Assembly (NCBI RefSeq): GCF_003590835.1
Contig: NZ_QYUQ01000002.1
Span: 2,728,001-2,792,000, forward strand
Reading direction: 5' to 3'
Length of the DNA stretch: 64,000 nucleotides
DNA from: Noviherbaspirillum sedimenti
GTDB lineage: Bacteria > Pseudomonadota > Gammaproteobacteria > Burkholderiales > Burkholderiaceae_D
Part shown: in pieces, positions 31,642-31,836 of the stretch
Layout: each line of letters begins with the position of its first letter
How positions within the stretch are numbered: the first letter of the stretch is position 1
Notes under the pieces: model-generated
What the model saw: the letters and a program-made list of their open reading frames with translations, nothing else
What the model was told of the DNA's origin: nothing
Databases searched by the model: none
Position numbers and translations under genes: made by a program

Positions 31642-31678
31642 AAAAAAAGCCCTGAAGAAAGGGGAGTATCTTCAGGGC
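31642..31678 (-). terminator. Rho-independent terminator of the minus-strand RNA
   Basis: Perfect 10-bp stem GCCCTGAAGA/TCTTCAGGGC with a 10-base loop; seven T follow on the minus strand (A-run at 31642-31648 of the plus strand). There is no T-run on the plus-strand side, so it is not an engB terminator. Confidence 0.85.
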
Positions 31679-31755
31679 ACGAACGCCATATCGCTTATGT
31701 CACGATAGGCCCCGCTCAGGGAGGAGAAGCGGGAGGTGAACGAATCACCTGTTGC
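31642..31755 (-). ncRNA. Probable small structured RNA, antisense to the hemB leader (anti-hemB-like motif)
   Basis: Read on the minus strand this interval folds into four successive hairpins: AGGTGA/TCACCT (31734-31750), CCCGCT/AGCGGG (31711-31733), TATCG/CGATA (31689-31707) and a 10-bp terminator stem (31649-31678) followed by seven T. The terminator polarity shows that the transcript runs on the minus strand, opposite to engB and hemB, where no protein gene exists to terminate. The second loop contains CTCCTCCC and the last loop CTCCCC, complementary to Shine-Dalgarno sequences. Position and orientation agree with the betaproteobacterial anti-hemB RNA motif as I remember it. The 5' end is uncertain; TTGAAA around 31775-31780 may be a -35 without a clear -10. 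Confidence 0.65.
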
Positions 31756-31836
31756 TGAGAGTCTGACCTTTGCTAAAAGTTTCAATCATTTCCCAATTTG
31801 TTTAAAATTTTCGGAATGCCCATTCCTGTTCCCGCC

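Follow-up and report, generated by a model that had tools for sequence, protein, structure and literature searches.

Results

Within the window, i.e. the whole 64-kb stretch of DNA that was analysed, engB (yihA/ysxC; 30865–31623, plus strand; TIGR03598, 202.9 bits, cut-off 124.45) is followed by the porphobilinogen synthase gene hemB (31837–32850, plus strand; NF006762, 508.1 bits, cut-off 297), for which the ATG at 31837 was chosen as start, a TTG at 31798 being the alternative. On the other side of engB and divergent from it lies a gene for a diheme cytochrome c (30047–30697, minus strand; two PF00034 stretches). The minus strand of the engB–hemB gap carries the subject of this work, a small RNA predicted at 31642–31750, which is divergent from hemB and runs towards the 3' end of engB. 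A TAAAAT box at 31803–31808, found by eye, could start hemB transcription outside this RNA.

Using the Rfam scan we assigned 31736–31642 (minus strand) to RF02837 (anti-hemB) with 53.3 bits against a gathering cut-off of 49.5 (E 1.3e-9). The match covers model positions 1–81 completely, takes in the three hairpins and the conserved loop CCUCCCUGAG, and is the sole gathering-level Rfam match within the 64 kb. The minus-strand RNA between engB and hemB is most probably a real small RNA and a member of the RF02837 family, which is already known and to which the window adds a member. According to the part of PMC5688073 that was available, the homologue ncS04 of Burkholderia cenocepacia is transcribed, measures 105 nt with a 3' end confirmed by RACE, and is stated to bind Hfq; the 109 nt predicted here come close to this length. 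The available part of PMC3521395 also lists the family for B. pseudomallei.

The RNA is built from four consecutive hairpins. The 5' hairpin AGGTGA-TTCGT-TCACCT (31734–31750) lies outside the Rfam model and covaries, the second (31711–31733; CCCGC, loop TTCTCCTCCCTGA, GCGGG) carries the anti-Shine-Dalgarno loop, and the third (GCCTATCG...CGATATGGC, 31685–31710) was obtained by folding and covaries in relatives (helices 3 and 4). The terminator (31642–31678) consists of a 10-bp stem GCCCTGAAGA/TCTTCAGGGC closed by the loop TACTCCCCTT (hairpin 31678–31649) and a run of seven T (31648–31642). Folding of 31635–31805 (minus strand) gave −56.4 kcal/mol compared to a shuffle mean of −44.24 (z −3.12), and none of 200 shuffles was as good. 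Our own four-hairpin model R1 matches 31759–31641 with 84.5 bits, its training set having included the identical sequence (L001).

For the covariation analysis we aligned 60 fetched copies, picked for their spread over families. In the four hairpins 90.9% of the cells pair and 23 of the 28 pairs show two-sided changes, a number reached by none of 500 shuffles, and sliding the partners by one column lowers the pairing to about 49%. G-U cells outnumber A-C cells by 91 to 29; as this excess would invert on the other strand, the minus strand is the RNA. All six pairs of the 5' hairpin show two-sided changes. Among the 112 of 117 copies that could be parsed for it, 79 pair at six of six positions, compared to a mean of 23.7 (maximum 38) when the strands were swapped between loci, and an unforced RNAalifold run on the same alignment recovered this hairpin as well (four pairs).

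Both C-rich stretches are located in loops, with CTCCTCCC (31726–31719, minus strand) inside the second hairpin and CTCCCC (31666–31661, minus strand) in the terminator. The core of the former, loop 1 (minus strand), is the conserved anti-Shine-Dalgarno stretch CUCCUCCC. It is almost invariant, as CCUCCCU[GA] is found in 110 of 117 copies, and the terminator loop reads YYCCCCU in 69 of 117. In the alignment the ten adjacent columns CCTCCCTGAG are identical in 60 of 60 sequences, which exceeds the length of a plain anti-Shine-Dalgarno element and thus suggests that loop 1 has preferred targets.

Much of this had been described in a first-pass annotation made from the letters alone. It had placed an RNA in the engB–hemB gap on the strand opposite to hemB, where we also find it, and had named it anti-hemB, which the covariance-model search (53.3 against 49.5 bits) proved right. 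The four minus-strand hairpins it listed, the last with a perfect 10-bp stem followed by seven T, are borne out by sequence and folding, and the compensatory changes in relatives (23 of 28 pairs two-sided) agree with them; the two C-rich stretches complementary to ribosome-binding sites do sit in loops. Of its span 31642–31800 the RNA itself stands, but the upper limit is too wide, with the start now predicted near 31750.

This start follows from the position of a putative promoter, which gives an RNA of about 109 nt. Its −35 element GAAACTT, of the ECF/sigma-E type (31777–31783, minus strand), was read from the sequence and is conserved in relatives, and its −10 element TCTCA (31756–31760, minus strand) follows 16 nt after it, the same position class being seen in relatives. 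Many copies are preceded by G[G/A]AACT, at a distance of about 48 nt from the core, with TCTnA 16–19 nt further on, and this consensus is similar to that of sigma-E in E. coli. The full motif is present in 78 of 117 non-redundant copies compared to a shuffle mean of 0.85 (maximum 4), one copy on the opposite strand and one for the reversed pattern; the patterns were written after the sequences had been seen, and within each main count the controls took the identical pattern. These 117 copies include ten below the family cut-off (L137–L146) and leave out L037, whose upstream region is that of L036. The motif is located at −44 to −52 in 72 of the 117, the −35 half alone occurs in 88 compared to 5 for the reversed half, and 39 are without the full motif. 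Across the window's own 5-Mb genome GRAACTT-N15-17-TCTNA gave four sites and the reversed pattern nine; as this count is no higher than its control, the evidence for the promoter is the conservation in relatives. A generic sigma-70 scan found nothing on the minus strand of 31500–32000. From these upstream sequences an ECF-type promoter for the anti-hemB RNA appears well supported.

As a candidate for the corresponding factor, RpoE is encoded in all 30 genomes tested. The pattern [TG]GAAC[TC]-N14-18-TCnn[AT] was found upstream of rpoE in 17 of the 30 (reversed 0, reverse complement 1) and upstream of the RNA in 78 of 117 copies (reversed 0); in the window's genome the rpoE upstream region reads TGAACTT-N16-TCAAT. 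The two sets agree in −35 element and spacing but differ in the last base of the −10 element: 16 rpoE upstream regions have T there and one has A, compared to 70 with A and 11 with T for the RNA. With the last base fixed to A, as in the RNA's own pattern, one of the 30 rpoE regions matched and the controls gave 2 and 1, i.e. there was no excess, and the agreement per genome between the RNA motif and the rpoE motif was weak (14/6/3/7, Fisher p 0.056). RpoE itself seems to be the likeliest candidate for the driving factor.

Sampling 300 genomes of the order, we detected anti-hemB in 210 (E 1e-5), in 190 of them over the cut-off. Among the named genomes, Paucimonas lemoignei is the closest relative by HemB (89% identity). 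Model R1 was applied to 80 hemB loci of such genomes and matched in 54, always on the strand opposite to hemB and in two cases about 1.4 kb upstream; the match in L051 (17.4 bits, other strand) was left out of the 54. After removal of L050, L054, L056, L062, L064 and L068, 48 of these matches were examined with a looser pattern, and 17 showed the promoter motif. It is present in Paucimonas, Keguizhuia, Gallionella, Sideroxydans and some Paraburkholderia and Pandoraea, and absent in Variovorax, the Comamonadaceae seen, Cupriavidus and Burkholderia proper. The latter absence is in keeping with the flat profile of ncS04 in B. cenocepacia, for which the available part of PMC5688073 gives no response in seven tabulated conditions and no general induction, SDS having also been tried.

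Some genomes possess three to six copies of anti-hemB (E 1e-4), partly in tandem about 90–100 nt apart. Multi-copy loci are L120, L134, L215 and L216 in G234, L129 and L136 in G251, L119 and L133 in G033, and L121 and L132 in G078. The copies of G033 and G078 that are distant from hemB (L119 and L121) retain the sigma-E-type motif; the four copies examined in G234 are without it. One further second copy (L137, sub-threshold with 45.2 bits) lies near a cspA thermoregulator match, which likewise falls short of its cut-off (69.9 of 78). From the window's own genome seven sub-threshold RF02837 matches were fetched (L002–L008). Two of them are double-hairpin toxic sRNAs of family RF02278 at gathering level (L004, 1497–1563, and L006, 1494–1557, both plus strand; 62.5 and 69.2 bits, cut-off 50), and L003 stays below that level. 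Three loci of one genus (L140, L142 and L145) encode a C-rich RNA of a different kind, marked by CUUACCUCCCU and CUCCUCCAUCCUCC stretches, and in L140 RF02278 scores over and anti-hemB below the respective cut-off.

Regarding the linkage to hemB we counted the neighbours of 118 copies, the flanks of part of the loci being only 400 nt long. In 73 copies engB converges on the RNA and hemB diverges from it, 8 have hemB only, 15 lack hemB and have engB upstream in the same direction, 2 lack hemB and have a converging engB, and 20 have neither. The RNA downstream of engB in the same direction, with hemB not adjoining, occurs in some families (L026, L036 and L184 among these 15 copies). In stretches of 6.5–7 kb around hemB-less copies (L269–L272) engB and the cytochrome gene are present and hemB is absent. 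Six copies over the cut-off with neither gene (L119, L120, L121, L129, L134 and L135) were seen with flanks of mostly 1.5 kb, L121 ending at a contig end. In the opposite direction, 35 hemB loci had no RNA match, engB still being upstream of hemB in 21 of them, and a similar promoter motif, searched within 320 nt with a looser variant, was found in 0 of the 35. Thus RNA and hemB dissociate both ways, there is no obligate linkage, and it is the RNA rather than hemB that the promoter motif accompanies. In the 81 loci with both, the predicted start of the RNA, which points away from hemB, and that of hemB are separated by about 71 nt in the median. Four loci without the RNA belong to or stand near the window's family (L042, L154, L155 and L156); engB and hemB remain neighbours there, the gap between their aligned parts being at most about 100 nt in the first three and about 320 nt in L156.

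In order to look for targets we searched the 10-mer CAGGGAGGAG in the genome and obtained three further sites compared to five for the reversed control. One of the three precedes an ATG, the gene behind it being presumably murF as judged from its sequence, and one precedes TTG/GTG frames. TCAGGGAGG-N4-10-ATG occurred at 61 places in 22 genomes compared to 2 for the reversed pattern, an excess that Shine-Dalgarno sequences alone would yield. Among 19 frames of 40 aa or more from 30 fetched loci no shared target gene was recognised by eye. Porin starts, 28 from the 30 loci fetched, paired no better than 47 gene starts of the window (p 0.29 and 0.08), which is a weak negative as the start codons were chosen by rule. 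The earlier idea that the RNA pairs with many start sites is plausible, but neither a recurrent target in the 19 frames nor a preference for porin starts emerged.

Discussion

The structure, strand, conserved loops, promoter motif and independence from hemB demonstrated above lead us to favour, as somewhat better than an even chance, a trans-acting RNA with its own ECF/sigma-E-type promoter that would be switched on by RpoE (or a close ECF factor) under envelope stress and block G-rich ribosome-binding sites with its loops. Transcription would begin at a promoter of the RNA's own in the engB–hemB gap and end at its own terminator. As the promoter is of the ECF/sigma-E type here and in many other betaproteobacterial families, envelope stress would most likely raise the level of the RNA by releasing RpoE or a closely related ECF factor. 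Assisted by Hfq, the exposed loop UUCUCCUCCCUGA and, as an aid, the terminator loop CUCCCC would then pair in trans with G-rich ribosome-binding sites, and translation of these putative targets would presumably be blocked.

Another role to be weighed, of which the tie to hemB had been suggested in the first-pass annotation, is that of a cis-antisense regulator whose complement is the hemB leader and whose synthesis lowers hemB expression or ties it to its own. This would agree with the position of the RNA upstream of hemB on the opposite strand, as found in 81 of the 118 copies and 54 of the 80 named hemB loci. However, 17 of the 118 copies adjoin engB without hemB, 20 have neither gene and 35 hemB loci are without RNA match, and a hemB mRNA starting at its own promoter (TAAAAT, 31803–31808) would miss the RNA, even if an mRNA reading through from engB would overlap it. 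Because of the dissociation, the divergent start and the possible hemB promoter, antisense control of hemB is unlikely, and we give it a slim chance; with the promoter motif also tied to the RNA, the proposed coupling to hemB is unsupported. The first-pass account as a whole is partly supported, for the RNA and its family but not for hemB, and had missed the promoter.

Doubtful in our view, and still to be taken seriously, is a housekeeping sRNA with anti-Shine-Dalgarno loops that is transcribed mainly by sigma-70 or another factor and for which the sigma-E-like motif is minor or ancestral. The motif is indeed missing in the named Comamonadaceae, Cupriavidus and Burkholderia proper, where some loci show sigma-70-like boxes by eye, the −10 element of the RNA differs from that of rpoE, and the expression of ncS04 in B. 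cenocepacia is flat in the part of PMC5688073 at hand. Against this stand the 72 of 117 copies in which the motif has kept its distance, and the scan of the minus strand of 31500–32000, which found no sigma-70 site in the window. The loops might also act on another RNA or a protein instead of mRNA starts, as in a decoy or sponge. Their conservation beyond the anti-Shine-Dalgarno core (CCTCCCTGAG invariant in 60), the other C-rich sRNAs of the same genome (RF02278 at L004 and L006) and the lack of a recurring target in the 19 frames could be read in this way; we nevertheless consider it very improbable, as the Hfq binding stated for ncS04 in the accessible portion of PMC5688073 and the precedent of sX13 favour pairing with mRNA. 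Thus, a trans-acting RNA under an ECF-type promoter is the reading we prefer.

For the widespread anti-hemB family, a part in the envelope-stress response becomes open to test, given the sigma-E-type promoter and the independence from hemB. The open literature matches made no mention of an ECF-type promoter, of a 5' hairpin beyond the model, of a dissociation from hemB or of the parallel to other engB loci, and the published structure figure of ncS04, in a part of PMC5688073 beyond the text available, may already show the 5' hairpin. No function for anti-hemB is given in the available parts of PMC5688073 and PMC3521395, hemB is not mentioned in the searched text of the Burkholderia review PMC10987360 and of Weinberg 2010 (PMC2864571), and no RpoE-dependent sRNA of this group was among the matches listed from titles and abstract openings of the open-licence literature.

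Comparison with known RNAs

The closest known system is RF02837 anti-hemB (Burkholderia RNA 7) with ncS04 of B. cenocepacia; the window RNA matches the model over its cut-off and is similar in length to ncS04. In contrast to the window RNA, the RF02837 consensus is without the 5' hairpin and the C-rich terminator loop, and the B. ambifaria locus (L048) has no sigma-E-type promoter. The Betaproteobacteria toxic sRNAs (RF02278) occur in the same genome as anti-hemB and also have C-rich loops and a terminator, but they are a separate family with two hairpins, as described in the available part of PMC5688073, and are encoded at other loci. For sX13 of Xanthomonas, the accessible text of PMC3771888 describes three C-rich loops and repression of mRNAs bearing G-rich motifs near their starts. 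Like anti-hemB it thus has several hairpins with C-rich loops; unlike anti-hemB it is always located downstream of polA and reported to be Hfq-independent, and the sX13 Rfam cross-match in L119 is weak (26.7 bits, cut-off 50). In the same text its authors ask whether polA loci elsewhere encode sRNAs that act alike, a question on which the present result bears.

The locus itself recalls that of ErsA (RF01719, Pseudomon-1). In one of two genomes, Pseudomonas-like, ErsA adjoins and converges on engB with a diheme cytochrome gene divergent, as in the window, the order being polA, ErsA, engB reversed, cytochrome (L265, L267) compared to hemB, anti-hemB, engB, cytochrome; the window cytochrome is 44.5% identical to that of L267. 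In the second genome (G460, L268) polA is adjacent, and engB was not found within the stretch. ErsA has promoter-like sequences TGAACTT-N17-TCATA and TGAACTA-N17-TCAGA, comparable to the ECF-type motif upstream of anti-hemB, and likewise a C-rich terminator loop; it is strictly sigma-22-dependent according to the available part of PMC7565897. The two RNAs differ in the far-side neighbour, polA for ErsA and hemB for anti-hemB, and share no common core loop by eye. RF01719 had no gathering-level match in the window and none in its genome at E 1e-5, and the anti-hemB copy L141 reached 26.9 of 50 bits with it. Model R1 does find both ErsA loci at the correct position (21.7 and 19.5 bits), yet the double-hairpin RNA L004 and the sub-threshold L003 reach 21.5 and 21.8; as ErsA scores no higher than such C-rich RNAs, we did not count this as homology.

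Spot 42 (spf) of E. coli is annotated in the order polA, spf, yihA (engB) reversed and converges on yihA like anti-hemB does on engB; it is under cAMP-CRP control, and model R1 gave no match at spf. By place, promoter type and loop chemistry we take anti-hemB as the betaproteobacterial counterpart at the engB-side locus of ErsA and Spot 42, common descent being left aside. More tentatively, and with a chance we would place below even, anti-hemB could be the betaproteobacterial envelope-stress sRNA, having inherited, by descent or by position, the place beside engB that went to ErsA in Pseudomonas and to Spot 42 in enterics. RpoE or a sister ECF factor would have driven it at first; sigma-70 promoters would have taken over in Comamonadaceae and Burkholderia, and in some families copies would have arisen away from engB and hemB by duplication. 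If this is true, the name anti-hemB points at the wrong gene.
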